Made by a program: the position numbers and the translations under genes
Shown: positions 9,525-33,010 of the stretch, piece after piece
How the letters are laid out: each line of letters opens with the position of its first letter
Numbering within the stretch: position 1 is the first letter of the stretch
The notes under the pieces: generated by a model
Seen by the model: only the letters and a program-made list of their open reading frames with translations
The model's database searches: none
What the model was told of the DNA's origin: nothing
NCBI RefSeq assembly: GCF_029760915.1
Contig: NZ_CP121685.1
Coordinates: 904,001-968,000, forward strand
Reading direction: 5' to 3'
DNA from: Olleya sp. YS
GTDB taxonomy: Bacteria; Bacteroidota; Bacteroidia; Flavobacteriales; Flavobacteriaceae
DNA length: 64,000 bases

Positions 9525-9543
9525 TATTTTATTGATTTTATAT

Positions 9544-9573
9544 AAAAAGACGCCAACTTTGGCGTCTTTTTTG
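9544..9573 (+). terminator. Intrinsic terminator after the M43 protease gene
   Basis: GACGCCAA pairs with TTGGCGTC over a 2-nt centre, flanked by A- and T-runs, so it could work in both directions. Confidence 0.88.
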
Positions 9574-9603
9574 TATTATTAAGTTAAAGAAACAAATTTT
9601 ACA

Positions 9604-10428
9604 ATGAAAACAATTACTATATTTCTATTTTCAATACTATTAAATGGTTGTGGAAGTACAAACCAAGCTAATGCTACTACAGATATGAAGCAAAATATAA
9701 GCGATAATCTAAATGGCTCTTTTGTTGTAAGTAAATTAGGAGAAAGCACCTCTGTACAAAACGACTTGACTATAAAATTTGATGATGCCACCAAAAGAGT
9801 ATCTGGTTTTTCTGGTTGCAATAATTTTTCAGGTAGTTATCAAATTAAAGATAAAAAAATAGCTATTCTTAATCTAATTTCGACAGAAAAAGCATGTTTA
9901 GACGATACAAACATGGTAGAAAGTAAATTCTTACAATCGTTAACAAAAGCTAACAATTTTAAAATTAAAAACAATGAAATTGTTTTTTTAAATGACTCTA
10001 AACAATTGTTTAATGCTAAACCTAATACGATTACAGATACTGCTAAACAAAGTCAAGATAACTCAATGATTATTGAATATACAGCAATAACAAGAGGGAC
10101 TTACAAGATGGTTAAAGTTGACCAAAATAGTATTAAGTCACAATTAAGTAGAACTGCACAAGAAGAAACAACTGCTTGCAGCAAAGACAATTGGGACACT
10201 TTAAAGAGCTTAGTAGAACCTATTAATTTAAAAGCTTTAAAAACCTTAGAACCGCCTAGTAAAGCTCATCAACATGATGGTGCTGCAATAGCAAATTTGA
10301 CTATCATAGTTAATGGTGAAACTTATCAAACACCAGCTTTTGATCATGGAAATCCTCCAAAAGAAATTGCAGATTTAGTAAATAAACTTCTAGATTTAAC
10401 AACACCTGAAACAAAAAAAGAAAACTAA
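9604..10428 (+). CDS. META-domain lipoprotein
   Basis: This is a 274-residue lipoprotein (signal ending LNGCGST). Residues ~30-125 form a META/HslJ-like domain with the typical FSGCNNFSGSY and STEKACLD segments. The C-terminal half (~140-274) is a separate domain. It contains TTACSKDNWDTL and a Gly-His-rich stretch (PPSKAHQHDGA) and is not assigned to a family. HslJ-type domains occur in envelope stress and antibiotic-tolerance proteins. It lies alone between a terminator and sufE. Confidence 0.8.
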   Translation: MKTITIFLFSILLNGCGSTNQANATTDMKQNISDNLNGSFVVSKLGESTSVQNDLTIKFDDATKRVSGFSGCNNFSGSYQIKDKKIAILNLISTEKACLDDTNMVESKFLQSLTKANNFKIKNNEIVFLNDSKQLFNAKPNTITDTAKQSQDNSMIIEYTAITRGTYKMVKVDQNSIKSQLSRTAQEETTACSKDNWDTLKSLVEPINLKALKTLEPPSKAHQHDGAAIANLTIIVNGETYQTPAFDHGNPPKEIADLVNKLLDLTTPETKKEN

Positions 10429-10482
10429 AACAGCTAACACTATCTTTAAGACTTCTTTAGTAGTAAATCATTGGATATTGAT

Positions 10483-10490
10483 TAATTTTG
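10483..10490 (+). promoter_or_regulatory. -7 promoter element of sufE
   Basis: TAATTTTG matches TAnnTTTG and lies 21 nt before the sufE ATG. No well-spaced -33 TTG was found. Confidence 0.5.
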
Positions 10491-10511
10491 TAGCCGAATT
10501 AAATTTGAAAA

Positions 10512-10937
10512 ATGAAGACGATTAAAGAAATACAAGACGACATTATTGATGAGTTTTCAATGTTTGAAGATTGGGAAGAGCGCTATCAGTATATGATAGA
10601 TTTGGGTAAAACACTTCCGTTAATAGCTCCAGAATATAAAACTGAAGACAATATTATTAAAGGTTGCCAAAGTAAAGTTTGGGTACACGCAGAGCTAAAC
10701 GACGATACAATTGCTTTTACAGCAGATAGTGATGCTATAATAACAAAAGGGATTATTGCCATTTTAATCCGTGTATTTTCCAACCAACACCCTAAAGACA
10801 TAATTGAAGCTAATACCGATTTTATTGATGCTATAGGATTAAAAGAACATTTATCACCTACCAGAGCTAATGGCTTAGTTAGTATGATAAAACAAATAAA
10901 AATGTATGCAATTGCATACCAAACACAATTACAATAA
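10512..10937 (+). CDS. sufE: Sulfur acceptor protein SufE
   Basis: SufE (141 residues) takes persulfide sulfur from SufS and delivers it to the SufB scaffold. The active cysteine is C52 in IKGCQSKVWV. The sequence includes the expected N-terminal FEDWEERYQYMIDLGK segment. It has its own promoter element and is 2 nt before the sufT-like gene, so the two form a second suf transcript separated from sufABCDS. Confidence 0.96.
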   Translation: MKTIKEIQDDIIDEFSMFEDWEERYQYMIDLGKTLPLIAPEYKTEDNIIKGCQSKVWVHAELNDDTIAFTADSDAIITKGIIAILIRVFSNQHPKDIIEANTDFIDAIGLKEHLSPTRANGLVSMIKQIKMYAIAYQTQLQ

Positions 10938-10939
10938 TT

Positions 10940-11266
10940 ATGAGTGACACTACAATAGATACAGCAGAATTAGGTGAGAAAATAGTACGCGTATTAAAAA
11001 CTATTTTTGATCCAGAAATACCAGTAGACATCTACGAACTAGGGTTAATTTATGATGTTTTTGTTAATGAAGATTACGATGTCAAAATATTAATGACCTT
11101 AACCACTCCTAATTGTCCAGTAGCCGAAACTTTACCTTTGGAAGTAGAAGAAAAGGTAAAATCTTTAAACGATGTAAAAGATGCAGAAGTAGAAATTACT
11201 TTTGATCCACCTTGGACGCAAGACTTAATGAGTGAAGAAGCTAAACTTGAATTAGGAATGCTTTAA
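10940..11266 (+). CDS. sufT: SufT/MIP18-type Fe-S assembly protein (DUF59)
   Basis: This 108-residue DUF59/MIP18-family protein helps Fe-S cluster maturation of target proteins. The hallmark segments DPEIPVDIYELGLIYD and TTPNCPVAETLP are present, the latter carrying the conserved cysteine. It starts 2 nt after sufE. The same family includes PaaD and the eukaryotic CIA factor MIP18, but the SUF context makes a SufT-like role most likely. Confidence 0.9.
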   Translation: MSDTTIDTAELGEKIVRVLKTIFDPEIPVDIYELGLIYDVFVNEDYDVKILMTLTTPNCPVAETLPLEVEEKVKSLNDVKDAEVEITFDPPWTQDLMSEEAKLELGML

Positions 11267-12958: not shown

Positions 12959-12989
12959 AAAAAAAGCACCTTAATTAAGGTGCTTTTTT
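12959..12989 (+). terminator. Intrinsic terminator after the DUF3078 gene
   Basis: A perfect inverted repeat (AAAAAAGCACCTT / AAGGTGCTTTTTT) with an AATT centre gives a bidirectional terminator. Confidence 0.9.
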
Positions 12990-12991
12990 AT

Positions 12992-13079
12992 GCGTTAAGG
13001 ATAGGAGTGACATCCTTTTTTTGCTGCCACATATGGCAAAAAAAGATATAACGGATAGCCTGACCCTTTAGGGTAACGC
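12992..13079. ncRNA. Multi-arm structured element, copy 1 (possible small RNA)
   Basis: The outer arms GCGTTA and TAACGC enclose three internal hairpins: GGAT/ATCC, TTTTTTTGC/GCAAAAAAA, and ACCC/GGGT. A second copy at 62792-62939 keeps the same order of arms but with different bases in the stems. The element lies between the DUF3078 terminator and the 3' end of hflX. It may be a structured RNA or a repeated DNA element. It could match an Rfam family such as Flavo-1, but this was not tested. The strand is undetermined. Confidence 0.5.
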
Positions 13080-13089
13080 CCAAATCAAA

Positions 13090-14319
13090 CTACTCCTCTT
13101 CTCCCATATTCTCATAATCGTAATCTGGATATAGAAAGTGATTATAAGGAAAGCGTGTTACATGAATTTCTCTAACCTCATCATACACTCGTTTTTTGAA
13201 ATCTTCAAGATTTTTCTTGTTTAATGCAGATATAAATAAAGCATTATCCTCTCCTACTCTATTCATCCAAGTTTTTTTCCACTCGCCTAAAGTATAGTGT
13301 TCTTTTGTTCGCACTTCTTGTAAATTTGAAGGATCAAAAGGTTCTGGCTTATAAGCATCTATTTTATTAAAAACCATAATCACAGGTTTGTCTGCACTAT
13401 CAATTTCGCCTAAAATTTTATTTACTGACGCTATATGGTCTTCAAAATTAGGATGTGAGATATCTACGACATGTAATAACAAATCGGCTTCTCTTACCTC
13501 ATCTAATGTGCTTTTAAAACTTTCTACCAATTGCGTTGGTAGCTTACGTATAAATCCAACAGTGTCTGTTAATAAAAAAGGTAGGTTTTGTATCACTACC
13601 TTTCTAACAGTGGTGTCTAGAGTTGCAAATAATTTGTTTTCGGCAAAGACGTTGCTTTTGCTAATGGTGTTCATTAATGTAGATTTACCAACGTTAGTAT
13701 AACCTACTAAGGCTACACGTACCATTTTACCACGATTACCACGTTGCACAGACATTTGCTTGTCTATAGTCTTGATTTTAGCTTTTAATAAGGCTATTTT
13801 GTCACGTACAATACGTCTATCTGTTTCAATTTCTGTTTCTCCAGGTCCACGCATTCCGATACCTCCTTTTTGACGTTCAAGGTGCGTCCACATACCTCTA
13901 AGTCTTGGTAGAAGATATTCGCATTGCGCCAATTCTACTTGCGTTCTTGCAGAACTGGTTTGTGCGCGCTGCGCAAAAATATCTAGTATTAAATTAGTAC
14001 GATCTAGTACTTTTATATTTAATATTTTACTAATGTTTCGCTCTTGAGATGCAGATAACTCGTCATCAAAAATAGCGGTACTTATGTCATTATCTTCTAC
14101 ATATTGTCTTACTTCCTCCATTTTACCAGTCCCTAAAAAAGTTTTAGGATTAGGCATCTCCATTTTTTGGGTAAAACGTTTTTTTACATCTCCTCCTGCT
14201 GTGTAGGTTAAAAACTCAAGCTCATCCAAATACTCTTTAGATCTATCTTCATCTTGATCTTTGGTTACAACACCTATTAAAACTGCTTTTTCAAGCTCTG
14301 TATCTTTTTTTTCTAACAT
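13090..14319 (-). CDS. hflX: GTPase HflX
   Basis: HflX (409 residues) is a ribosome-binding GTPase that splits or rescues stalled 70S ribosomes under stress. The N-terminal HflX domain contains TFLGTGKMEE. The linker has the RGPGETEIETDRR motif. The GTPase domain has G1 GYTNVGKST, G3 DTVGFI and G4 NKID. The length is slightly below the E. coli protein. A -7 box lies upstream on the minus strand. Confidence 0.96.
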   Translation of the reverse strand: MLEKKDTELEKAVLIGVVTKDQDEDRSKEYLDELEFLTYTAGGDVKKRFTQKMEMPNPKTFLGTGKMEEVRQYVEDNDISTAIFDDELSASQERNISKILNIKVLDRTNLILDIFAQRAQTSSARTQVELAQCEYLLPRLRGMWTHLERQKGGIGMRGPGETEIETDRRIVRDKIALLKAKIKTIDKQMSVQRGNRGKMVRVALVGYTNVGKSTLMNTISKSNVFAENKLFATLDTTVRKVVIQNLPFLLTDTVGFIRKLPTQLVESFKSTLDEVREADLLLHVVDISHPNFEDHIASVNKILGEIDSADKPVIMVFNKIDAYKPEPFDPSNLQEVRTKEHYTLGEWKKTWMNRVGEDNALFISALNKKNLEDFKKRVYDEVREIHVTRFPYNHFLYPDYDYENMGEEE

Positions 14320-14334
14320 ATAATTATTTATACT

Positions 14335-14343
14335 GCAAAGTTA
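14335..14343 (-). promoter_or_regulatory. -7 promoter element of hflX
   Basis: On the minus strand this reads TAACTTTGC, matching TAnnTTTG, 16 nt before the hflX start. Confidence 0.6.
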
Positions 14344-14398
14344 CATAATTGTAACCATAATAAATTTGCTATTTTTAAACCTCTAAAATTAGTGATAA

Positions 14399-15361
14399 TT
14401 GAAATTTAATCTCTTTAAATCCAAGACCAATAAACAAACTGTTGCATTTTACAACATAGAGAACCTGTTTGATATTTATAAAGACGAATTGACACGGGAC
14501 TTAGATTTTAATCCAACTTCAGAAAAACGTTGGACTATAAAACGTTACAATAATAAATTGCGTAAAATTGGCTATGCAGTATCCAATATTGGACGTAAAG
14601 AAACTAATACGCATCCTGCCATTATTGGATTAGCAGAAATAGAAAATGAAGCAGTAATTAAAGATTTGTTAGCCTCAAAACATCTTAAGGAATACCCTTA
14701 CAGTTATGTACATTATGATAGTAAAGACGAACGTGGAATTGATGTCGCTTTATTATACGACCGCAAAAAATTTAGTGTTTTACATTCTGAAATCTTTGAG
14801 TTTTCGTTTCATACTGAAGGCTATATAGATCATACTAGAGATATTTTGTGGGTTAAAGGGTTATTTTTAAACGAAGAGATAAATTTTATTGTCAACCATT
14901 GGCCATCAAGACGATCAGGTAATAACGAAACAGAACACAAACGAAAAGCTGCTGCTGCATACGTAGAAATGATTATATCTAAAATAAAAGTAGACAAACC
15001 AGATGCTAAAATTATAATCATGGGTGATTTTAATGATGATCCATCTAGTAAAAGTGTACGACAATTAGTTAATAATCAAGGATTATTTAATCCAATGGAA
15101 ACTTTAATTTCTATAGACAGAGGGACTACTGTTCATAATTTTGAGTGGAATTTATTTGACCAAATAATTATTACTCATAATTTTTTTGAACGTAAAGCCA
15201 AAAGCCTGCGCTACGTTAAAGCCGATATTTATGATGCTGATTTCCTAAAGCAATTTGATGGTAAATATAAAGGCACTCCTTACAGAACTTATGTTGGTAA
15301 ACACTATAAAGGTGGTTATAGTGATCATTTTCCTGTATATATGATTTTAAATAAAAAATGA
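14399..15361 (+). CDS. Endonuclease/exonuclease/phosphatase family protein
   Basis: This is a 320-residue EEP-fold protein without an obvious signal peptide. Motifs of the fold are visible: FYNIENLFD near the N-terminus, GLAEIENE (metal-binding Glu), NHWPSRRSG, MGDFNDDPSS and SDHFPVYM (catalytic His near the C-terminus). Members cleave phosphodiester or phosphoester bonds. The start is a TTG at 14399; no in-frame ATG lies before the first core motif. It is divergent from hflX. The substrate is unknown. Confidence 0.85.
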   Translation: MKFNLFKSKTNKQTVAFYNIENLFDIYKDELTRDLDFNPTSEKRWTIKRYNNKLRKIGYAVSNIGRKETNTHPAIIGLAEIENEAVIKDLLASKHLKEYPYSYVHYDSKDERGIDVALLYDRKKFSVLHSEIFEFSFHTEGYIDHTRDILWVKGLFLNEEINFIVNHWPSRRSGNNETEHKRKAAAAYVEMIISKIKVDKPDAKIIIMGDFNDDPSSKSVRQLVNNQGLFNPMETLISIDRGTTVHNFEWNLFDQIIITHNFFERKAKSLRYVKADIYDADFLKQFDGKYKGTPYRTYVGKHYKGGYSDHFPVYMILNKK

Positions 15362-23494: not shown

Positions 23495-23556
23495 ATTAGG
23501 CTTATTATAGCTTTAGATTTACATCAGTTAAAATATCTTTAATTAAAATTTAAAAC

Positions 23557-23601
23557 TACCCTTTTGTTTAAGTATTAGCTTTACTTTCTGGCTTATTTTT
23601 G
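23557..23601 (+). promoter_or_regulatory. Promoter region of the ThiF gene with TACCCTT heptamer
   Basis: A -7 element TATTTTTG (23594-23601) is followed by GTAGTAT. A TACCCTT heptamer (23557-23563) lies about 37 nt upstream. The acyltransferase promoter has a similar arrangement. See the finding on the shared regulon. Confidence 0.5.
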
Positions 23602-23618
23602 TAGTATATCTTTAAATA

Positions 23619-24374
23619 ATGGACAATAGATACAGTAGAAATAGAATATACTTAACTCCAGAAGAACAAGAAGCTATTAAAAATTATCCTATTATTTTAG
23701 GAGGTTGTGGTATTGGTAGTGTCATTGCAGAATGTGCATTACGTTTGGGTTTTGAAAATATAACCATAATTGATGGCGATCAAGTTGAACTTTCAAATCT
23801 AAATAGACAAAACTACACAGAAGACGATATTGATACAGATAAAGTTAGCGCTATAAAAAAAAGACTGTTATCTATTAATAACAAAGCAAACATTACAGTC
23901 CACAATTGTTTTTTAACAAAAGACAATGTAGAAACATTAGTTGAAGGCCATAAAATTGCTATTAACGCTTTAGATTTTACCTCAGACATCCCTTTACATT
24001 TTGATAAAATATGTCAACAAAAAGGAATCCCTGTTTTACATCCATATAACCTAGGTTGGGGAGGATTAGTAACTATTATCACTCCAGAAGGACTGCTATT
24101 AGACTCAATAGAAAAACCTAACGAAAAATTTAATGAACTTAAGATGGTAGAATATGCTACCAGCTATTTAAAGTTTTGGCAAACACCACATGATTGGATT
24201 GATGAGTGTATAGAAAAGTACCTGAAAGAAAAAGAAGTGTTACCACCACCTCAATTGCCAATAGCCTCTTGGACTGTAGCTGCAATGTGTACGCATTTGC
24301 TGTACAATATTGCAACAAATAAGAACATTAAAAGGTTTCCTGAATTTTATTTATCTACTATAATGAATAGTTAA
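23619..24374 (+). CDS. ThiF/MoeB/HesA-like E1 adenylyltransferase
   Basis: This is a 251-residue stand-alone E1-like domain. The nucleotide-binding loop is GGCGIGS (28-34), followed by the ATP-contact residues D54, N60, R63 and Q64 in IDGDQVELSNLNRQ, and K75. No zinc CxxC pair typical of MoeB/ThiF is visible. Members activate a C-terminal carboxylate by adenylation. No ThiS/MoaD-like partner or thiamine gene is nearby. Its stop is 1 nt from the stop of the convergent LuxR gene, and its promoter shares a motif with the acyltransferase. A role in peptide modification is a plausible inference. Confidence 0.85.
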   Translation: MDNRYSRNRIYLTPEEQEAIKNYPIILGGCGIGSVIAECALRLGFENITIIDGDQVELSNLNRQNYTEDDIDTDKVSAIKKRLLSINNKANITVHNCFLTKDNVETLVEGHKIAINALDFTSDIPLHFDKICQQKGIPVLHPYNLGWGGLVTIITPEGLLLDSIEKPNEKFNELKMVEYATSYLKFWQTPHDWIDECIEKYLKEKEVLPPPQLPIASWTVAAMCTHLLYNIATNKNIKRFPEFYLSTIMNS

Positions 24375-24375
24375 A

Positions 24376-25134
24376 CTAGATTAACTTATTATTTGTAGCG
24401 TAGGCAATAGCTTCAGAGATATTGGTTACCTCTAATTTTTCAAACAGTTTTTTTCTGTGAAACTTAACCGTATCTGGCGAAACAAATATTGCTTCTGCCA
24501 CTTCGTTAATAGTAAATCCTCTAGAAGAATATTGTAAAATTTCTTTCTCTCTACTAGTCAATTTTACAGCTTCTGTTTCTTTCCAAAAATCACCATCTAA
24601 ATCGTAAGTAAAAATTGTATTACTCCCTTTTTTAGACACTATTATATTCCCAGATTTATTTTCTGAAGACAGAGAAACAATTGCAATAGCCTTCCATAAT
24701 TTACCATCTGAGGTTAAAAATAAAGGCGTCATTTTATGATTAATTAACGTTTTTTCTCCGTCTTTATTAATTAAATGAAAGTCATAAGATATTGTGTAAT
24801 CTTTCCGCTCTTCAACTGGCACTTTATCATAAAAATCAAACCCGATTCTATTTATTTTTAAAAGAAGATTTAAATCAGATTCTATCACGTGTTTGAAGTA
24901 AAATGCGTATCCCATTTCTTTAACTTCTTCTGCTGTATTACCACATAAAAACAGAGGGTTCTCAGATACGTAGTCAAACCCTTTCTCTTTATAATCAACT
25001 ATATAAAGGCTTTTATAAGTAGTCCTAGCTAAGGCATCGATTGATTCTAGGTAGTTAATGGCTTGTTTCTGATCTTCTTCTGAAACATCGTTAAGACTGT
25101 TTTTAAAAGAAAAAAAATCATTTACATCAGGCAT
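24376..25134 (-). CDS. PAS-like / LuxR-type HTH transcriptional regulator
   Basis: This is a 252-residue regulator. The N-terminal ~170 residues form a PAS-like sensory region with an IINKDGE-like stretch (HLINKDGEKTLINHKMTPLF). The C-terminal ~65 residues are a LuxR/NarL HTH (LTSREKEILQYSSRGFT, then VSPDTVKFHRKKL). It has no acyl-homoserine-lactone binding domain and no receiver Asp. It is divergent from the acyltransferase gene, and identical sequence lies around both -7 boxes, which suggests it regulates both genes. Confidence 0.88.
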   Translation of the reverse strand: MPDVNDFFSFKNSLNDVSEEDQKQAINYLESIDALARTTYKSLYIVDYKEKGFDYVSENPLFLCGNTAEEVKEMGYAFYFKHVIESDLNLLLKINRIGFDFYDKVPVEERKDYTISYDFHLINKDGEKTLINHKMTPLFLTSDGKLWKAIAIVSLSSENKSGNIIVSKKGSNTIFTYDLDGDFWKETEAVKLTSREKEILQYSSRGFTINEVAEAIFVSPDTVKFHRKKLFEKLEVTNISEAIAYATNNKLI

Positions 25135-25142
25135 AACAGTGG

Positions 25143-25304
25143 TTTATACTCAAATATAATATTTTTTTAAATAGGGTATCATCTTTTTTCAATTTTACTA
25201 AACCTAAAATACCTACCCTTAAGTGTGGTTTTTTTGTAACTGCCTCACTACCACCTTTTTGTGTAACAATATTGCTTAATCATCTAAATAGCTTTGAGTA
25301 TAAA
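25143..25304. promoter_or_regulatory. Divergent promoter region of the LuxR and acyltransferase genes
   Basis: The sequence TTTGAGTATAAA occurs at 25293-25304 and, inverted, at 25143-25154. Each is part of a -7 box pointing at its gene: TAGCTTTG (25289-25296, plus) and TATATTTG (25151-25158, minus). TACCC-type heptamers are at 25214 (TACCCTT), 25249 (TACCACC) and 25172-25178 (TACCCTA on the minus strand). These resemble sites of NarL-type HTH proteins, which commonly recognise TACYY-like heptamers. Confidence 0.55.
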
Positions 25305-25315
25305 ACTTATATATT

Positions 25316-25993
25316 ATGATACTCACAAAAAACTATTTAGAAAAGCTTCAAAAAAATCAATTATTAAATCTTGCAGAATTTGTTGTTAAAGAAAACTTTA
25401 AACATCACTCTAACAATAACTTGCCCAAAGACTATAAAGATGATGTAAATGCTATTTATAAAGAAGAATTAAGCTTTTATGAAAACTCAGAAATTTACGC
25501 TTCAAAGAACTACTCTGGATCTATCTTAGGTGCCATTCGTGTTCTAAAATGGAATTACATTGATGTTTTACCGCTTCAGAAAATTTTTGGAATTAATCCA
25601 CTTCTAGCAATTAACAAACCTAGTGTAAACCATATTTATCATGTAGGCAGATTTGCAGTAAAAAAAGAGGTACGCGATATTAGCTTATTTAAAGAATTGT
25701 TGGTTTGTGTGGCAAAACTAATCTGTAACCATAAAGATAATATTGCATTTGCAGAATGTGATAGCAAACTATTAAGAATATTAAATCTGCTAGGTGTAAA
25801 AACTAACATCCTTGGAGAATCTGTAAACTACTTAGGGTCTGAAACTATACCAATTGCTATGACCTATGATGGTGTGTTAGGTTTTTATAATAACAACAAA
25901 CATTTAATAGATAAAAACTTAGAGAACACCACAGAAGTGTATACACTACCTAAAAGTGTAGTTTTAAATACTTCCAGACATACTACTCTTTAG
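25316..25993 (+). CDS. FeeM/LuxI-like GNAT acyltransferase
   Basis: This 225-residue protein has the layout of N-acyl amino acid or N-acyl homoserine lactone synthases (GNAT fold). Segments include GSILGAIRVLKW (beta-strand pair), IYHVGRFAVKKEVR (acyl-donor binding strand and following Arg) and a C-terminal FAECDSKLLRILNLLG helix. Relatives move a fatty acyl chain from acyl-ACP to an amine. It precedes the tandem Cys-rich peptides. Whether the acyl acceptor is an amino acid, a lactone or the peptide itself is not shown by the sequence. Confidence 0.65.
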   Translation: MILTKNYLEKLQKNQLLNLAEFVVKENFKHHSNNNLPKDYKDDVNAIYKEELSFYENSEIYASKNYSGSILGAIRVLKWNYIDVLPLQKIFGINPLLAINKPSVNHIYHVGRFAVKKEVRDISLFKELLVCVAKLICNHKDNIAFAECDSKLLRILNLLGVKTNILGESVNYLGSETIPIAMTYDGVLGFYNNNKHLIDKNLENTTEVYTLPKSVVLNTSRHTTL

Positions 25994-26020
25994 GGTAGCG
26001 TAATCTTCTATCTAAGTAAC

Positions 26021-26028
26021 TAATTTTG
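26021..26028 (+). promoter_or_regulatory. -7 element upstream of the first Cys-rich peptide
   Basis: TAATTTTG is followed by AATATGA, similar to the TTTGAGTATAA context of the LuxR and acyltransferase promoters. TAGGGTA (25991-25997, the inverted heptamer TACCCTA) lies 24 nt upstream of the box and overlaps the acyltransferase stop codon. Confidence 0.5.
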
Positions 26029-26051
26029 AATATGATATTGCAACATCTTCT

Positions 26052-26107
26052 AGGCGGAAACTGAAAAGCCTTTAAAAGAGTAAGTAAAATACTAATAATT
26101 AAATATT
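26052..26107 (+). promoter_or_regulatory. Conserved 56-nt leader, copy 1
   Basis: This non-coding sequence ends at the start codon of the first peptide. It begins with AGGCGGAAACTGAAAAGCCT, where AGGC can pair with GCCT. A second copy precedes the second peptide with exactly the same 56-nt distance to ATG, although a 1-nt indel occurs inside. Confidence 0.65.
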
Positions 26108-26329
26108 ATGAAAATTAATTTAAAAGACAGCTCAAATAAGAGTCAAATTTCAAGTATTAGAGGTCAAATTAAAGACGCAGGTGATTTAAAAAAGTTTGAT
26201 GCGTTTTTAGCACAACATGATTCGTTTGATTTTAACGATGAAACAGATTTAAAGGCAGCCAAAGGTTGTTGCGGTGGTGACAAATGCTGTACTATTACTA
26301 TAGAGGTTCCTTCTCTTAAGGCAAACTAA
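26108..26329 (+). CDS. Cys-rich 73-residue peptide, possible RiPP precursor 1
   Basis: The N-terminal ~52 residues are a charged, leader-like helix region (for example KKFDAFLAQHDSFDFND). The C-terminal 20 residues carry G53, C54-C55-G-G-D-K-C60-C61 and end in PSLKAN. It has 59 of 73 residues identical to the next ORF. Small size, tandem duplication, a conserved untranslated leader and neighbouring acyltransferase, protease and AAA+ genes suggest a precursor of a modified peptide. No known RiPP leader family was recognised. A small metal-binding protein is the alternative. Confidence 0.75.
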   Translation: MKINLKDSSNKSQISSIRGQIKDAGDLKKFDAFLAQHDSFDFNDETDLKAAKGCCGGDKCCTITIEVPSLKAN

Positions 26330-26372
26330 TTTAAGATAGGAAACTAAACAGGTAACTCTGTAAAAGTAATAG

Positions 26373-26428
26373 AGGCGAAAACCGAAAAGCCTTAAAAGAG
26401 TAGGTACAAATTTCTAACAAATAATATT
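26373..26428 (+). promoter_or_regulatory. Conserved 56-nt leader, copy 2
   Basis: It begins AGGCGAAAACCGAAAAGCCT and matches copy 1 at most positions. The AGGC/GCCT arms are unchanged. No promoter is evident directly upstream, so the element may act in the RNA (translation, stability or processing). Confidence 0.65.
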
Positions 26429-26650
26429 ATGAAAATTAATTTAAATGACAAATCTAATAAGAGTCAAATCTCTAATGTCAGAAGTCAAATTAAAGATGCT
26501 GGCGATTTAAAAAAGTTTGACGCTTTTTTAGCAAAACACGATTCATTTGATTTTAATGATGATAATGACCTGAAAGCTGCTAAAGCTTGTTGTGGTGGTG
26601 ACGAATGCTGTACTATTATAATTAGTATGCCTAGCTTAAAAGCTATGTAG
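26429..26650 (+). CDS. Cys-rich 73-residue peptide, possible RiPP precursor 2
   Basis: A tandem paralogue of the preceding peptide (about 81% identity, same length). The core CCGGDECC keeps all four cysteines at 54, 55, 60 and 61, and the tail ends PSLKAM. Differences cluster in the last 21 residues as well as at a few leader positions. It lies 99 nt after the first peptide's stop, and those 99 nt include the conserved leader. A strong hairpin follows. Confidence 0.75.
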   Translation: MKINLNDKSNKSQISNVRSQIKDAGDLKKFDAFLAKHDSFDFNDDNDLKAAKACCGGDECCTIIISMPSLKAM

Positions 26651-26697
26651 TATTGATTTTAAAAATCAAGTACACTTCAAATTTAGTAATCCAATTT

Positions 26698-26758
26698 ACT
26701 TACTGTATTTTTTGATTAACAATCTATTAGATAGGTTAATTTTTAAAATACAGTAAGT
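26698..26758 (+). promoter_or_regulatory. Long inverted repeat between peptide genes and the maturation operon
   Basis: A perfect 14-bp inverted repeat (ACTTACTGTATTTT / AAAATACAGTAAGT) encloses a 33-nt loop that itself contains ATTAAC/GTTAAT. No T-run follows the right arm, so it is not a standard terminator. It may limit read-through or stabilise the upstream mRNA 3' end. A smaller palindrome lies at about 26653-26669. Confidence 0.6.
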
Positions 26759-26786
26759 TAAAATTAATCTTTAAAAATATAATCCT

Positions 26787-27980
26787 ATGGACTTAAATAT
26801 AAACAACAAACAGACTTATTTTGAAACTATAAATAAAACTAAAGCGGATATTTATCAAACAAAATTTGATGAGATCGAGAGTATGGGACTTTTAGGTATG
26901 TATTTAATGATGTCAGCTAATTTATCAACGTTTATTCCTGGATTAAAAGATGAGAATCACTACAAAACTATTCAAGATATCCAACTTCACCGTTCACTAT
27001 CTGCTATAGATCAATACTACTTTCATCTTTTGGATGAATTAAAAGTGACAGACAATTCAAACATTCTTAAAAATTGCCATAAAGAAGGGCATATTTTTGT
27101 TACATACCATACAGGATCTTACAGACTATTTATTCAAAAATTAAACCAAGAGAACATCCCTTTTTGTTTAGTTACAGAAGGAAACTACATAAAAGAACAG
27201 GGAAGTGAAACACATAAGCTTTTTAAGGAATTAAACAATAATACAAGAGACCTAGAAATATTACCTGCCGAAAATCCAAGACTAATATTTGAGTTAATAA
27301 AAAGATTAAAACAAGGTAAATCTATTGTGTTTTACATTGATGGTAATAAAGGAGCTACTGACAAAAATTTAAACGAAAACAAGAATTTATTAAAAATAAA
27401 TTTTTTAAACAATCATATATACGCTAGACAAGGTATCGCATTTCTTTCATATTTATCAAAAGCACCTCTTGCAACAGCTATTACAAAAAGAGATCAAGAT
27501 TTAAATAACTATATATCTATAAAGCCTGTCAATACAAAAAGCTTAATAGAAAAAAACACTAGGAATGATTTTATAAATATAGTTACCAAAAAATTATATA
27601 GCGAATTGGAAGTCCTTTTAAATAAGCATCCAGAACAATGGGAAGGTTGGTTTTACATAGATAAATTTTTTCAACAAGAAAATACTGTAACTGAAGAAGC
27701 TGAACATGTTACAAGTTTTAAACCTAATAAAATAACAACATTAGCTGTAAATCAATTTGTGCACTTGATAAAACATAGTGAAGATAAAATGTTCTTAGTC
27801 AGCAAGAAAGATTACAAAATTATGAAAATAACAGACTTCTTGTTTAATGTGTTGTCCTATTTTAAAATTCCAAAAACAATTGATCCAGGAAAAATTTTAA
27901 AGATAGGTAACAATGAAGTTAACTGGAATGTATTAGAGGAACTTGTTGAGATGAAATTTTTAAAACCAATTACTAAATGA
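26787..27980 (+). CDS. Lysophospholipid acyltransferase-like protein (LpxL/LABLAT type) with extra C-terminal domain
   Basis: This is a 397-residue protein. Residues ~80-300 resemble the LpxL/HtrB acyltransferase family: HTGSYR (H108 onward) at the HX4D/E site, IDGNKGAT, and YARQGIAFLSYLSKAPL. The usual acidic residue of the catalytic dyad is replaced by Arg (HTGSYR instead of H-x-G-x-W-E). Residues ~314-397 form an added domain with strands then helices (KMFLVSKKDYKIMKI ... WNVLEELVEMKFLKPI), similar in layout to PqqD-type peptide-recognition domains. It starts the operon that continues to 32473, and its stop overlaps the next start (ATGA). Confidence 0.68.
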   Translation: MDLNINNKQTYFETINKTKADIYQTKFDEIESMGLLGMYLMMSANLSTFIPGLKDENHYKTIQDIQLHRSLSAIDQYYFHLLDELKVTDNSNILKNCHKEGHIFVTYHTGSYRLFIQKLNQENIPFCLVTEGNYIKEQGSETHKLFKELNNNTRDLEILPAENPRLIFELIKRLKQGKSIVFYIDGNKGATDKNLNENKNLLKINFLNNHIYARQGIAFLSYLSKAPLATAITKRDQDLNNYISIKPVNTKSLIEKNTRNDFINIVTKKLYSELEVLLNKHPEQWEGWFYIDKFFQQENTVTEEAEHVTSFKPNKITTLAVNQFVHLIKHSEDKMFLVSKKDYKIMKITDFLFNVLSYFKIPKTIDPGKILKIGNNEVNWNVLEELVEMKFLKPITK

Positions 27981-29353
27981 GACATTATCTTAAATATTTA
28001 ATGATACTTTTTGTTTTTACTGGTAGTGCAAAAGCACAAGACAATGAACAAATTTGGGAAAGCGAATTTAATTTTGGTGGAAATTTTGTGCTCACAACTT
28101 TTTTAAAAGTAAACCAATCTCAAAACCAATTTACAATCACTTCTCCAGAAAATGCAGATAAGAGAATGTTTGGAAATTTTAAATCCAAATTAGGAAGAGC
28201 TACCGGTAAATTACCAAAAAAAGGAATATTTATAACCATCAATGGTACAATTGAAGGTAATGATCTAGTTGGAGTAGTAAATACACCATTGCTAGGTGAT
28301 TTAACATTTGAAGGTGTTCTTGAAAAGGACCTGCTTACAGGAAACCTTTTAAAAAATGATACTTTAGTTATAGGTAACTTAAAAGCTATAAAAAGTAAAA
28401 AAAATCAAATTAGCTACAAGCATTTACATGCAAAACTAATAGATCTAACAGAATCAAACATCTATTCTAAAGATGTTTTAAAAACTAAATCTTGGAAAAA
28501 ATTTAATAAGTCATTAAAACGAATTTTAAATAAAGCTGAGGATGATATAGAACTATTTGTCGGTTTTAATATGATTAGCCAAAATCTAGGTTTTAGTCAT
28601 TATAATTTAATGTTATCTGGAGAAAACACAACAATACCTGAGGAGGAAGATAATGATACCACGCAATCTAAAGAAGTAACGTTTGAAGAAAAAAACGCTA
28701 CTACTGCTTACTTGAAAATTGACAACTTTAGTTCAACACAAGAAGAGTTGGCTAAAGTATTACCAAAAGTAGTTGAGAATAAAAATTATGAAAACCTAAT
28801 AATTGATTTAAGAAATAATGGAGGTGGTGGTATAGAGGCAGCTTTTGAACTGGCGCAGCATTTAATAAGTCAATCTACCAATGTAGGGTATTTTATTACC
28901 AAAAATTTAGAATACTCTGGATTTGATAAAAAACTGTTTGAAAACCTTAACGAGATTAATCCAAGCACCACAGACCAATTTATAGAATATCTAAAAAATA
29001 ATACAGGAGCCAAGTTGGTATTTCATGAGACTGACACGTCTGTCTTTAAAGGGAATTTATACGTCCTAACAAATAATAATACAGCAAGCACATGCGAACC
29101 AATAGTTTACATTTTAAAAAACAATTTAGGAGCAACAATTATTGGAGAACAAACAGCTGGCGCCATGCTAAGCGCTGCACCTTTTGATATTGAAGAAAAA
29201 TATAAATTAATACTTCCTATTGCAGACTTTTATACTTCTGATGGCGTCAGGCTAGATCAAAATGGAGTACTCCCAAATGTAGTAATAGAATCAGAAAAAG
29301 CACTTGATAAAGCGCTAGAAATAATAAACAATAACACTATAAAAAACTATTAA
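27977..29353 (+). CDS. Exported S41-family protease
   Basis: This is a 458-residue protein with a signal peptide (ending GSAKAQD). Residues ~235-450 match the S41 tail-specific protease catalytic domain: NLIIDLRNNGGGG, YVLTNNNTASTCEP with catalytic Ser at ~371, and GEQTAGA. The Lys of the CtpA-type Ser/Lys dyad is not at its usual place, as in other S41 subfamilies. The N-terminal ~150 residues are a beta-rich domain, and no PDZ domain was seen. ATG overlaps the previous stop. It could trim the exported peptide; that is inference. Confidence 0.82.
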   Translation: MRHYLKYLMILFVFTGSAKAQDNEQIWESEFNFGGNFVLTTFLKVNQSQNQFTITSPENADKRMFGNFKSKLGRATGKLPKKGIFITINGTIEGNDLVGVVNTPLLGDLTFEGVLEKDLLTGNLLKNDTLVIGNLKAIKSKKNQISYKHLHAKLIDLTESNIYSKDVLKTKSWKKFNKSLKRILNKAEDDIELFVGFNMISQNLGFSHYNLMLSGENTTIPEEEDNDTTQSKEVTFEEKNATTAYLKIDNFSSTQEELAKVLPKVVENKNYENLIIDLRNNGGGGIEAAFELAQHLISQSTNVGYFITKNLEYSGFDKKLFENLNEINPSTTDQFIEYLKNNTGAKLVFHETDTSVFKGNLYVLTNNNTASTCEPIVYILKNNLGATIIGEQTAGAMLSAAPFDIEEKYKLILPIADFYTSDGVRLDQNGVLPNVVIESEKALDKALEIINNNTIKNY

Positions 29354-29354
29354 A

Positions 29355-30860
29355 ATGGATTTATTAAAAGGAGGAGCTGTACTAGCAGTTATAGTAGGTT
29401 TTTGGGATAAAATTAAAACATTTTTATGGATGGGTTTATCTACTTTTATTCAAAAAGCAGAAATTAAAACAGAGGATATTCATAATGAAGTAATAGGTCA
29501 CTTAATAAAAAATAATAAAAAATTTAAAGGCTATGACAAGGTTTTTGCTTCTCAATATGAATCCTTCAGAAATGGAAAATACGGTTTAGTACCATATGAG
29601 AAGTTTGGAGATTCTTTAATGATTTTCTTAACTCAAAAAAAATATTTTTTTAAACTTTTTAGAATTCCCTTTGTATTTACTACAAATAGTGAGTCCTCAA
29701 CAAAAAAGGAAGGTAATAACGAGCAAAACGTAAAGGCTAAAAGTTTTTCATTTATAATCTCGTTACGTGGTACAATAGATGTTGCAAAAATAGTAGAAGA
29801 AGCTACAATAAGAAGAAACCAAATAAGTTGGGATATTGAAGAAGCAGAAGAAAAAACAAACAGATTTGACATCTACTATTTTCCTGAAAGAGATCAAGAT
29901 GATAATTCTAAAAAAAATTATGGTTTTGGTTATTCATGGTTTATGCAAAGCCAATATAAACTTATAGGAGTTAACCATAACGATTTAGGAAGAGAACTAA
30001 AAAATAAAGGTAACGCTTTAGATAATTTATTTTTCCCAAAAGAAATAGAAAAGCTAATCAATATAATTAGCCTATGGGTTAAAAGTAAAGATTGGTATAA
30101 TCAAAAAAATATCCCTTGGAAAAGAGGATGGCTTTTGTACGGTATTCCTGGTACTGGAAAAACAGCTTTGGCAAGAGCTTTTGCAGAGGATTTAGACTTA
30201 CCCATTTATTTTTTCTCGCTTGCTCAAATGTCAAATGACGAACTGATTAAAGCCTGGCAAAGTATGCAACTAAATGTGCCTTGTATAGCTTTAATAGAAG
30301 ACATTGACAACGTTTTTGATAAAAGAAAAAATATTGCTCAAATTTCTCCATTTCAATTTGGACATCAATTTAATCAGAATAATAATGGAGGCTCAGAATC
30401 TAAAAATCGAGTTCAGACGCCTTTAACCTTTGACACTCTATTAAATTGTATTGATGGTGTAGATAAAACAGATGGTGTTTTTACAATTATTACAACCAAT
30501 GATATTAGTAAAATTGACGAAGCAATTGGGCAGCCAAGAATATTAGAAGATGGTACTCAAGAGTTTGTTTCTACTAGACCAGGTAGAATAGACAGAGCAA
30601 TAGAGCTTAGCTATATGAGCAATGAAAACAAGATTAAGATGGCAGAAAAAATATTGTTTGAATTCCCTAACAAAATTGAAGACATCAAATTACACATCCT
30701 TAAAAATTTAAAAGAAACGCCTGCACAATTTCAAGAATATTGTTCTCAAATAGCTTTGGAAGAATACTGGAATAAAACAGGAAAGCAAATACCGTTAAAT
30801 AATAACAAAAATAATATCGAATACGATATTGTTTCTAAAAATGGAACATACGATTTTTAA
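29355..30860 (+). CDS. BCS1-like AAA+ ATPase
   Basis: This is a 501-residue AAA+ protein. An N-terminal membrane segment (~6-28) is followed by a BCS1-type N-domain, then Walker A GIPGTGKT (263-270), Walker B IALIEDID (311-318), sensor-1 TTND (380-383) and the Arg-finger region RPGRIDR (408-414). BCS1 relatives are membrane-anchored AAA+ machines that move or remodel folded protein; bacterial versions are mostly uncharacterised. It starts 1 nt after the S41 gene, so they are translationally coupled. A role in export or handling of the peptide is inferred. Confidence 0.85.
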   Translation: MDLLKGGAVLAVIVGFWDKIKTFLWMGLSTFIQKAEIKTEDIHNEVIGHLIKNNKKFKGYDKVFASQYESFRNGKYGLVPYEKFGDSLMIFLTQKKYFFKLFRIPFVFTTNSESSTKKEGNNEQNVKAKSFSFIISLRGTIDVAKIVEEATIRRNQISWDIEEAEEKTNRFDIYYFPERDQDDNSKKNYGFGYSWFMQSQYKLIGVNHNDLGRELKNKGNALDNLFFPKEIEKLINIISLWVKSKDWYNQKNIPWKRGWLLYGIPGTGKTALARAFAEDLDLPIYFFSLAQMSNDELIKAWQSMQLNVPCIALIEDIDNVFDKRKNIAQISPFQFGHQFNQNNNGGSESKNRVQTPLTFDTLLNCIDGVDKTDGVFTIITTNDISKIDEAIGQPRILEDGTQEFVSTRPGRIDRAIELSYMSNENKIKMAEKILFEFPNKIEDIKLHILKNLKETPAQFQEYCSQIALEEYWNKTGKQIPLNNNKNNIEYDIVSKNGTYDF

Positions 30861-30872
30861 AACTTAAAAGAC

Positions 30873-31310
30873 ATGAAAAATTTACTTTACACTTTAATTA
30901 TAACACTGTTTATACCTTATCATTCGTTTTCTCAAGAAACTAATGATCCAGTAGATGTTAACGCTAACTGGAGTGGTAGAGGTTGCAGAGGAACTAATGG
31001 GTTATGTAATATTGATATTACAAACAATAACATGACCAATGCTAGAATACATTATGATAGTTACGATTTAATTCTTGTAATAGATAGATCAAAACTAACT
31101 CAAGAAGACGAGTCTAATTTAGTAAGCGTAAGATTAAATAAAGACTCTAATGAGAGTGAACTTATTTTTATAATGGATGATGACTTTGAATTAGAAGCAG
31201 AAACTAAAACCATATTAAATATACCTGAAAATTTAAGCACTATTACTAAAGGTGAATATCCTCTGGAAGTTACTTCAGACTCCATAATTATAACTCTTAA
31301 AATAGAATAG
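30873..31310 (+). CDS. Small exported protein of unknown function
   Basis: A 145-residue protein with a signal peptide (ending FSQ). The mature part is beta-rich and contains CRGTNGLC near residue 37, a likely disulfide loop, then an acidic region. No family is recognised. It starts 12 nt after the AAA+ gene and ends 2 nt before the next gene, so it belongs to the same operon. Confidence 0.72.
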   Translation: MKNLLYTLIITLFIPYHSFSQETNDPVDVNANWSGRGCRGTNGLCNIDITNNNMTNARIHYDSYDLILVIDRSKLTQEDESNLVSVRLNKDSNESELIFIMDDDFELEAETKTILNIPENLSTITKGEYPLEVTSDSIIITLKIE

Positions 31311-31312
31311 TT

Positions 31313-32473
31313 ATGAAAACATTTATATACATAATTGTATTTAGTATTATAAGTTTTCCCTTTAAGGGTTATGCTAATACAAACAATCCAAATATCGAAA
31401 TAGAAACTATTTTGTATGAGTTAATTATCGAAACTAATACTATTTTAGACACTTATAGAAGTAAGAATAACAAGTTGTATCAAAAGCTTAAAAAATTAAA
31501 AATAAAGCTAAGTAATACTAATATCTCAAAAGAACAAATTCAACTTTTAATAAAAAAAGAAGAAGTAAAAGAAAAGCTACTCTATAATTCTATGTCTGAA
31601 GCTAGTGAGATTAGTAAAGTGCGTTATTTAAAGGGTCTTCAGATTATTAAAATTTTATACGAAAAAACATTAAGCTTAGATCATCATTTTGCAACTGTGG
31701 CTACTTTTAATGAAATTAACAACCTTAGTAATCCAAATAATTACCCAGAATTTATCAAATTAAAAGACAATATTTCCTCTTCAAAAGATAAAAAATCAGG
31801 ATTCAGTTTGTCAGGAATTTTAGGTGAAAATATATATACTTCAGTAGTGTATTCTATAGTATCATTGTTTACTAATTCAAATACAAGTCGATTAGAAAAG
31901 GAGGAAAACATAAAAGACGTAGAGTGTATTTTAGACTTTACCTTACGTATGCACAATGATTTAAATACTATTTATTTTGAAACAGCTTTCCTACAAAAAA
32001 GTAATGATAATGTCATTAAAGAATTAGAACAACTTTTTGTAGATTTTACCAAACCCATTAAGTACAAGATTTCTATAAAAGATTGTAGAAATTCTGATGA
32101 TTGGGATACGGTTAGAGAAAACTTAAATAAGTATATAGAAGAATTAAAAAAATCAATAGAAGACGATTCTAAACGTTATAAAGCACATAAAATGCAAATA
32201 GATTTAGAATTTCCAATAGATCGTCTTTTACAATTTATAACTCTATACAATTCGCATATAGACCAAGGTGCTAAATTTTATGAAAAATTTGGAATCATGC
32301 TTGGTAGCTACGAAAACGAAGCTCAATGTGCAACCAAAATTCCATTAGAGTATTCTAATTTAAAAGACAACATAAATACCAGCATTGATAAATTTAATAC
32401 GGCTTACAAACCTGTAGAAATAAACGGTAGCAAGATGAAGCAAGTTTTGTATGGTATTAACGAATATGACTAA
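31313..32473 (+). CDS. Exported helical protein of unknown function
   Basis: A 386-residue protein with a signal peptide (residues 1-21, ending GYANT). The rest is largely alpha-helical, Lys/Glu/Asn-rich, with probable coiled coils (~60-120 and ~250-290). No motif is recognised. A hydrophobic stretch around IYTSVVYSIVSLF (~180-195) could be a membrane-inserting helix. It is the last gene of the operon and is followed by a terminator at 32520. Confidence 0.7.
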   Translation: MKTFIYIIVFSIISFPFKGYANTNNPNIEIETILYELIIETNTILDTYRSKNNKLYQKLKKLKIKLSNTNISKEQIQLLIKKEEVKEKLLYNSMSEASEISKVRYLKGLQIIKILYEKTLSLDHHFATVATFNEINNLSNPNNYPEFIKLKDNISSSKDKKSGFSLSGILGENIYTSVVYSIVSLFTNSNTSRLEKEENIKDVECILDFTLRMHNDLNTIYFETAFLQKSNDNVIKELEQLFVDFTKPIKYKISIKDCRNSDDWDTVRENLNKYIEELKKSIEDDSKRYKAHKMQIDLEFPIDRLLQFITLYNSHIDQGAKFYEKFGIMLGSYENEAQCATKIPLEYSNLKDNINTSIDKFNTAYKPVEINGSKMKQVLYGINEYD

Positions 32474-32519
32474 TTCATATATATCAGGAATTATTGATTC
32501 CTTTAAATTGATTAATAGC

Positions 32520-32550
32520 AAAAAAGGCTCGCAAATGCGAGCCTTTTTTT
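32520..32550 (+). terminator. Intrinsic terminator at the end of the peptide-locus operon
   Basis: GGCTCGC and GCGAGCC pair over AAAT, with A- and T-runs. It differs by one base from the stem of the terminator at 23464. Confidence 0.9.
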
Positions 32551-32569
32551 AACAAACTAACAATTAATG

Positions 32570-32902
32570 TTATTTCCCTAGCATTAATAACTCGTTACAA
32601 ACTACTTCTGTAATGTAACGTTTCATTCCATCTTTATCTTCCCACGTTCTGGTTGTCAGCTTCCCTTCTACTGCAACCTCTTTTCCTTTAATAACATACT
32701 TTTCAATAATGTCTGCAGTCTTACCCCAAGCCACTATATTATGCCAGTCCGTTTTGGTTTGTTTTGTACCATTAGCATCTTTATAACTCTCGTTAGTTGC
32801 TAAAGAAAATTTTGCCAATTTTTTTCCTGATTCTAAATTGATGATTTCTGGATCTTGTCCTAAGTTTCCAATCAACTGTACTTTGTTTCTAAGTGTGTTC
32901 AT
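32570..32902 (-). CDS. ssb: Short single-stranded DNA-binding protein (SSB)
   Basis: This 110-residue SSB consists only of the OB fold (MNTLRNKVQLIGNLGQDPE ... WHNIVAWGK ... EVAVEGKL). It lacks the Gly-rich linker and acidic DxIPF tip that normally recruits partner proteins, so it is probably an accessory SSB rather than the replication SSB. It lies alone, converging with the peptide-locus operon. Confidence 0.9.
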   Translation of the reverse strand: MNTLRNKVQLIGNLGQDPEIINLESGKKLAKFSLATNESYKDANGTKQTKTDWHNIVAWGKTADIIEKYVIKGKEVAVEGKLTTRTWEDKDGMKRYITEVVCNELLMLGK

Positions 32903-33010
32903 AATTTTAAATTTTTAATGTTAAACAGTTAATGCAATCGAGTTGTTATGTTTCGACACTGCAAAGATGAAGCAGCTCACAAATTTTATTCGGTAGTTAC
33001 ACATTTAATG

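Follow-up and report, generated by a model that had tools for sequence, protein, structure and literature searches.

The window analyzed here is a 64-kb stretch of the Olleya sp. YS genome (positions 904001–968000 of the 3.0-Mb single-contig genome). It contains genes for a ThiF/E1-like enzyme, a LuxR-type regulator and a GNAT-fold enzyme, followed by two tandem peptide genes and an LpxL-like acyltransferase operon. The sequence-only reading had taken all of them for one system making an acyl-modified ribosomal peptide. ORFs and Pfam showed every gene at the place given there, and the families broadly held in Pfam and NCBIfam. Judged from sequence comparison, the locus is composed of two modules: a ThiF–LuxR–GNAT module (23619–25993) and a peptide operon (26108–32473). 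Its features are listed below.

23554–23573: lux-box-like operator upstream of the ThiF gene (matrix score 16.2)
23619–24374, + strand: ThiF/E1-like adenylating enzyme, 251 aa (Pfam ThiF, 3e-32)
24376–25134, − strand: LuxR-type regulator with PAS-like N-terminus and GerE helix-turn-helix (Pfam GerE, 1.6e-16)
25211–25230: lux-box-like operator in the LuxR–GNAT gap (score 21.7)
25249–25268: possible second box, 38 bp past the first (score 11.7, within the window background; placed by spacing only)
25316–25993, + strand: FeeM/LuxI-fold GNAT, proposed acyl-signal synthase (AlphaFold2 and Foldseek)
25944–25963: lux-box-like operator inside the end of the GNAT gene (score 22.2, the window's best)
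25981–26000: lux-box-like operator 37 bp after the 25944 box and 127 bp before peptide 1 (score 19.7)
26051–26086, + strand: DUF805b RNA directly before peptide 1 (Rfam RF02914, 43.7 bits; cut-off 35.6)
26108–26329, + strand: precursor peptide 1, 73 aa, core ...GCCGGDKCC...
26372–26406, + strand: DUF805b RNA directly before peptide 2 (Rfam RF02914, 48.4 bits)
26429–26650, + strand: precursor peptide 2, 73 aa, core ...ACCGGDECC...
26787–27980, + strand: predicted LpxL/LpxM-fold acyltransferase with a C-terminal RiPP recognition element (RRE)-like domain (Foldseek; Pfam Lip_A_acyltrans 6.7e-4, under the Pfam cut-off)
27741–27968, + strand: the RRE-like domain, residues 319–394 (bbb-aaa topology, structural match to TbiB1)
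27977–29353, + strand: S41 protease with an N-terminal signal-like segment by eye (Pfam S41, 1.7e-29)
29355–30860, + strand: BCS1-like AAA ATPase with an N-terminal hydrophobic segment by eye, candidate translocase (Pfam AAA, 3.5e-16)
30873–31310, + strand: small exported protein (signal-like start by eye; L044 match 2.9e-4; similar 140-aa ORF in L031 by eye)
31313–32473, + strand: exported 386-aa protein (signal-like start by eye; 65% identical homologue in L031)

Peptides 1 and 2 are 82% identical to each other. They behave as coding genes, because dN was 0.13 and dS 1.52 between the copies and homologues with a conserved leader were present in three other genomes. Both have core-motif counterparts in locus L031 (loci are numbered with L), where the first peptide carries GCCGGDKCC and the second ACCGGDECC. 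This pairing suggests that the two may be distinct, retained partners. Over its full length, peptide 2 was no nearer to its L031 counterpart than to the other L031 peptide. Among homologues, the leader was kept and the core varied: the L032 core is SCSNSCG, with CC..CC lost. The peptides therefore have the encoded precursor, conserved leader and variable core of a ribosomally synthesized and post-translationally modified peptide (RiPP). Their N-termini (MKINLKDSS... and MKINLNDKS...) are hydrophilic by eye. No type II signal peptide was seen there, so an identity as a DAG-RiPP, the lipoprotein-like class compared below, was rejected.

Searches with the peptides alone found little. Among 60 relatives (E ≤ 1), only the genome's own copies and marginal matches were returned, and in 299 genomes of the family (E ≤ 0.01) three others matched marginally (9e-4 to 9e-3). 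A plasmid search with peptide 2 gave no match, and neither Pfam nor NCBIfam assigned a convincing family. The CCGGDxCC core and this want of a family would suit metal-binding (metallothionein-like) or Cys-rich stress proteins, apart from natural-product chemistry. However, no metallothionein, a known function that the sequence-only reading had named as an example of what would count against its idea, matched in Pfam or NCBIfam at E ≤ 1, and the Cys array is not kept in L032. The conserved leader with its variable core, the tandem copies and the genetic linkage to LpxL-like enzymes, seen across three precursor groups, also argue against such proteins, which we consider a very improbable explanation.

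The LpxL-like protein was present in 3 of the 299 family genomes and, by profile, in 6 of 395 phylum genomes, the own genome included in both counts. The profile added five phylum loci; by eye, a Cys-bearing small ORF adjoined the LpxL-like gene in L026, L027 and L029. A scan of 84,980 species genomes then gave 64 LpxL-like loci. The nearest relatives (L031, L032, L033 and L044) were all from metagenome-assembled genomes (MAGs) of Flavobacteriaceae. L031, whose LpxL-like protein is 72% identical, has two peptides, LpxL, S41 and AAA genes, with the 386-aa protein upstream. L032 (48% identical) has one peptide, LpxL, S41 and an AAA gene cut by the contig end, and L033 has peptide, LpxL and S41 on a 3.3-kb contig. 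In L044, LpxL is reduced to its C-terminal 140 aa and the S41 gene is split; AAA and a relative of the small exported protein are there, with no peptide, and this copy is decayed or misassembled. The order peptide(s)–LpxL–S41–AAA was thus repeated in L031 and L032, and part of it in L033 and L044.

Short ORFs of the 64 loci were compared with three precursor profiles, on the same strand as the LpxL-like gene and within a fetched flank of up to 10 kb. A match was found in 54 loci (37 group S, 14 group E, 3 group F). Fifteen loci had supplied the profile seeds and match by construction; 39 of the 49 others matched too, some with sequences identical or near-identical to a seed. As a control, the same profiles were run on 19 unrelated loci and matched none of their 1082 ORFs. 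In group S (Spirosoma, Larkinella, Runella and relatives), the peptides are ~50–67 aa long, occur in 1–3 copies and, where read, end ~4–40 bp ahead of the enzyme gene. Group E peptides have an ELEERLEM-like leader and lie mostly 1–7 kb from the LpxL-like gene, with an M50 protease gene in 12 of the 14 loci. LpxL-like relatives lie near precursor peptides in most loci, and the gene order is not unique to this genome.

On the opposite strand, the profiles matched only in L045 (Pedobacter sp. PAMC26386), where six equal-scoring ELEERLEM-type precursor ORFs stand in tandem at 13422–14700 (− strand). L046 (Saprospiraceae MAG, 8810–11158) contains a tandem LpxL-like pair, ketosynthase and, by eye, dehydratase-like genes, and four precursors. 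Three LpxL-like relatives are labelled proteobacterial, L089 (Thalassotalea), L055 (Lysobacter MAG) and L074 (Thalassovita MAG), perhaps through transfer or mis-binning. In L089, a Cys-bearing ELEQRLEM peptide lies downstream of the LpxL-like gene.

All 98 distinct precursor ORFs contained Cys; a few of them are one peptide with a longer start, and two contain masked letters. Within the last 28 residues, Cys occurred in 97, Asp in 92, Ser in 90, Glu and Thr in 88 each, Lys in 61 and Tyr in 17. A ketosynthase gene was within the flank in 11 of the 64 loci, a count without a chance control, together with ketoreductase and in some cases acyl carrier protein genes. The precursor and ketosynthase data point to acylation at or near Cys. 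Other neighbors (tblastn, E ≤ 1e-6) were M50 (15 loci), arginase (12) and radical SAM (5) genes. Ornithine could be an alternative acceptor in the arginase clusters, because Arg often precedes Cys there.

The LpxL-like protein was modeled using AlphaFold2 (mean pLDDT 73, C-terminal part 54–70). The best Foldseek matches were LpxM (5kn7, 5.7e-11) and PatA (7.1e-10), so the predicted model has the LPLAT fold, in agreement with the earlier family call, which Pfam had left below its cut-off. PF03279 was matched by 28 of 52 members at E ≤ 0.05. The extra domain noticed earlier corresponds to residues ~319–394. The whole model matched the lasso-peptide RRE TbiB1 (5v1u/5v1v; probability 1.00, target-normalized TM-score (TMt) 0.58–0.60, E 0.03). 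The Foldseek table gave no ranges, and the match was placed on this domain by size and bbb-aaa topology.

The catalytic motif of LPLAT enzymes is HX4(D/E). In the LpxL-like protein, the His is kept; five residues on, the window protein has R113, and R, K, I, L or P stands there in the remaining seven members of alignment A2. The protein might accordingly have an acyltransferase fold without acyl transfer, serving in leader binding only or in another Cys-directed reaction; besides the absence of the acid in all eight A2 members, this is favored by H108 and G110 being the only two residues invariant among 52 aligned members. Against it stand the conserved His, the ketosynthase genes nearby with ketoreductase and some acyl carrier protein genes, and the DG and QWEGW-like motifs, kept in at least 90% of members and suggestive of a working pocket. 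On this evidence, we consider a non-acylating protein rather unlikely.

Several observations nevertheless weigh against an enzyme that acylates a bound precursor. Acyl transfer is not assured, given the residue at H+5. The RRE-like assignment rests on the fold predicted for a part with pLDDT 54–70: PqqD of Pfam matched none of the 52 members, and hhalign of the domain against the N-termini of the neighboring arginases and M50 proteins gave low probabilities (4.2% and 0.5%; controls 0.3% and 0.07%). No Cys-bearing small ORF was seen by eye beside the LpxL-like gene in L028 and L030. By profile, a same-strand precursor was absent in 10 of the 64 loci (L034, L044, L045, L055, L063, L072, L081, L087, L089 and L093), of which L089 has a candidate by eye. 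Even so, the precursor survey and the predicted folds support a new type of lipidated RiPP, in which the acylation would be the enzyme's contribution.

An S41 homologue follows the LpxL-like gene in L031, L032, L033 and L044, and a weaker one in L034. For the ATPase, the best relatives in the PDB were mitochondrial BCS1 proteins (phmmer, 3.7e-18), so that the name BCS1-like holds. BCS1 is the mitochondrial Rieske-protein translocase. The two were alignable over residues ~220–462 only, and matches to the N-terminal part were confined to this operon type. The ATPase is 71–72% identical in L031, L032 and L044, and among the 299 family genomes it was found in the own genome only (E ≤ 1e-20). Translocation by the ATPase and trimming by S41 are their putative roles.

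The ThiF–LuxR–GNAT module has a different distribution. The GNAT was found in 10 of the 299 family genomes and, by profile, in 10 of 340 phylum genomes, of which three (own, G010 and G159) had already been seen and two belong to another family. Only the own genome of the 299 has both the GNAT (10 genomes) and the LpxL-like gene (3 genomes), and L088 was the only other fetched locus with both. We compared 19 GNAT loci (the window, L088, L105–L113 and L131–L138). LuxR adjoins the GNAT in 17 of them, and ThiF lies within the fetched stretch of 15 (not L111, L135, L136 or L137). In L113 (6752–8162) and L138 (4950–6426), ThiF stands immediately after a divergent GNAT; LuxR and boxes are both absent, and these loci may be a receptor-less version.

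Downstream genes were recognized by eye, not by profile. The module or its LuxR–GNAT part is followed by genes of non-ribosomal peptide synthetase (NRPS) size and a NusG-like gene in L109 and L135, by NHLP-type peptides and exporters in L106, L111 and L136, and by double-glycine (GG)-leader or lanthipeptide-like genes in L110, L132 and L137. In L088, the full set precedes a radical SAM/CCC-peptide/LpxL cluster. The downstream type was unclear in L105, L107, L108, L112, L131, L133 and L134. L132 (8547–9237) and L137 (15565–15732) contain, by eye, GG-leader Cys-bearing precursors of lanthipeptide-like type.

A palindrome of about AACTACCCTTTTGTGTAGTG is common to the LuxR–GNAT gaps and often doubled 37–39 bp apart. 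A matrix was built from 15 sites in the gaps of nine other loci, with no window sites. Leave-one-locus-out scoring was also run, with two window sites added; no matrix drew on the L131–L137 sites or on any ThiF site. The three best matches in the window were at 25944 (22.2), 25211 (21.7) and 25981 (19.7), and the fourth was at 23554 (16.2), 65 bp before thiF. In 30 first-order random 64-kb windows, the best matches scored 17.8 and 15.5.

A box of at least 14 was present in the LuxR–GNAT gap of all 17 LuxR-bearing loci, as would be expected of a synthase promoter, including all seven of L131–L137, which gave no site to any matrix. It was also present upstream of ThiF in 12 of 13 loci with ThiF and LuxR (not L108) and, except in L106, L107, L111, L136 and L137, at or just past the GNAT stop (12 of 17). 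Outside the window, the other 16 LuxR-bearing loci (244 kb) gave 59 matches of at least 14, all in the module or at its edge, and 1.38 Mb of other loci gave 3 matches of at least 15. A strict box pattern had two matches in the 3.0-Mb genome, 25944 and 25981, both before the peptides, and none in the control.

The GNAT was modeled with a pLDDT of 85. Its three best PDB matches in Foldseek were TofI (1.2e-8), FeeM (2.4e-8) and LasI (2.9e-8), which agrees with the FeeM/LuxI-like call made earlier. Among 17 LuxR relatives, Pfam matched GerE in all, PAS_3 weakly in four and PAS_9 in one. ThiF has close solved relatives (PDB 9egc/9egd/9egb, 401.6 bits), and the residues that we take to form its adenylation site are invariant in 15 of 15 sequences. 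A literature search found no paper for 9EGB–9EGD; given the solved relative, the ThiF–LuxR–GNAT module may already be under study elsewhere.

The GNAT and ThiF could instead belong to one pathway with the peptide operon, in which N-acylation of the peptide would fall to the GNAT and activation of a carboxylate to ThiF, with LuxR as a regulator only. The genes adjoin, boxes lie before thiF, the GNAT gene and the peptides, and the ThiF–LuxR–GNAT set also precedes the LpxL/CCC-peptide cluster in L088. GNATs are known RiPP lipidation enzymes, as in selidamides and microvionin, according to the available part of PMC13060382. However, neither gene was found in L031 or L032 (the search covered the fetched stretches of the two MAGs), the module or its LuxR–GNAT part precedes NRPS-sized genes (L109 and L135) and also loci whose type is unclear, and a separate box-bearing promoter, divergent from luxR, lies before the GNAT gene. 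We judge the single pathway unlikely, and the GNAT an unlikely peptide acyltransferase. It is more likely that GNAT and ThiF make a signal than that they modify the peptide, because the module recurs elsewhere, the boxes are conserved and the module is absent near the L031 and L032 peptide operons. In the one acyl-peptide system proposed from the sequence, the RiPP-type locus with an acyltransferase was supported, by the gene order in L031 and L032 and the 54 loci with precursors, and GNAT and ThiF as peptide modifiers were less supported.

The signal-circuit interpretation also has evidence to its disadvantage. As one random window scored higher (17.8) than the ThiF box of the window (16.2), this box rests on its position. 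The strict pattern was picked after the window matches had been seen, and with one mismatch it was no commoner in the genome than in the control (25 matches vs 33). In 11 of 12 loci the 3′-end boxes overlap the last codons of the GNAT gene, and protein conservation could contribute to them; two observations run counter to that cause, the pLDDT below 50 of the GNAT tail and the L108 pair, 37 bp apart, just outside the gene. Ordinary acetyltransferases matched the GNAT model almost as well. By sequence, the GNAT matched no PDB chain, and in Pfam it fell outside the LuxI-type family, with FeeM as its sole match (0.094, under the cut-off); its best NCBIfam model was the exosortase-linked acyltransferase TIGR03694, in 9 of 11 members and below the cut-off. 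No autoinducer-binding Pfam domain was found at E ≤ 0.05 among the 17 LuxR relatives. ThiF was not near the GNAT in 4 of the 17 LuxR-bearing loci. L031 and L032 carry the peptide operon without the circuit or boxes of at least 15 in their fetched stretches.

On balance, the locus is probably an operon for ribosomal peptides that is controlled by a signal-like circuit of its own. The FeeM/LuxI-fold GNAT would couple an amino acid to a fatty acyl chain, and ThiF would adenylate the carboxylate of the product, perhaps for cyclization. A signal of the N-acyl-cyclolysine type would be a conceivable product; such a signal has reportedly been published, and the word was absent from two papers checked. 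The LuxR-type protein would sense the product, possibly in a density-dependent way, and bind the 20-bp palindromes upstream of thiF, the GNAT gene and the peptide operon, in a positive feedback loop. In the LpxL-like enzyme, the RRE-like domain would hold both 73-aa precursors and the LpxM-fold domain would move an acyl chain onto the core, most likely to a Cys or its neighbor. Passage across the inner membrane would be the task of the BCS1-like ATPase, with the exported S41 protease trimming the peptide afterwards.

More tentatively, these genes may represent a new lipidated-RiPP class, a proposal to which we give less than even weight. In it, LpxM-fold acyltransferases with a built-in leader-binding domain would acylate a core Cys or its neighbor; a two-peptide product would be exported by a BCS1-type ATPase; and production would be switched on by a Bacteroidota LuxI/LuxR-like circuit with the signal made by a FeeM-fold GNAT and ThiF, the same circuit governing NRPS, NHLP and lanthipeptide-like clusters. 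The locus is real and not ordinary, a place where two conserved modules meet, and sequence comparison lends strong support to the proposed peptide acylation.

The own genome has four DUF805b copies over the cut-off. This RNA is not peptide-specific, because two of them precede other, unrelated genes. It also precedes peptide 2 of L031 (8895–8929). A Flavo-1 RNA (RF01705, 60.6 bits) lies at 12986–13069 (+ strand) of the window. No + strand terminator was found in 25000–33000, and promoter scan sites were no more numerous than in shuffles; both are weak tests. A defense system was rejected: PADLOC matched ThiF (E1–E2) and AAA (IetA) partially and assembled none at the locus.

A literature search found neither module described in the titles and abstract starts of the papers listed; it covered few subscription papers and is weak evidence of novelty. 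In the parts available, PMC9654057 notes that FeeM resembles acyl-homoserine lactone synthases, and PMC6000730 reports Bacteroidetes LuxR genes without a known synthase, for which an unknown synthase could not be ruled out. Such LuxR genes are also reported in the accessible portion of PMC11069264. The words "quorum" and "LuxR" do not occur in the available text of a Flavobacteriaceae cluster survey (PMC10734526). If the proposal is true, the circuit supplies the "missing synthase" for Bacteroidetes LuxR proteins; with ThiF–LuxR–GNAT and a defined operator, a LuxI/LuxR-type signaling of the Bacteroidota's own becomes testable, and the operator indicates which genes may be under the circuit's control. 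The fusion of a leader-binding domain to an LPLAT-fold enzyme would likewise be a new route to lipidated ribosomal peptides, and it offers a search handle for dozens of uncharacterized clusters in Spirosoma, Larkinella, Runella, Chryseobacterium and Flavobacteriaceae.

The locus resembles several known systems in part. Like the selidamides and other GNAT-lipidated RiPPs (kamptornamide, phaeornamide, microvionin and goadvionins, from the part of PMC13060382 seen), it combines a ribosomal precursor and a putative fatty-acyl transferase in one cluster. The acyltransferase here has instead a predicted LpxM/PatA fold with a fused RRE-like domain, and the operon contains S41 and a BCS1-like ATPase in place of a lanthionine synthetase or ABC exporter. 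DAG-RiPPs of the chryseobasin type are also lipidated, Cys-containing RiPPs of Bacteroidota; they use a type II signal peptide and Lgt/LspA/Lnt, as far as the available part of PMC12636315 tells, whereas the window peptides start hydrophilic. With LpxL, LpxM and PatA (PF03279), the LpxL-like protein shares the fold and the conserved His; it differs in the lost HX4(D/E) acid, the extra RRE-like domain and the neighboring peptide genes. The circuit is similar to LuxI/LuxR and the FeeM N-acyl amino acid synthase in the LasI/TofI/FeeM GNAT fold, the divergent LuxR-type gene and the palindrome in their shared promoter, but it lacks Pfam LuxI and autoinducer-binding matches and has a PAS-like sensor, an extra E1-like ThiF and Bacteroidota hosts. 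The candidate translocase shares with BCS1 the AAA domain and an N-terminal hydrophobic segment.

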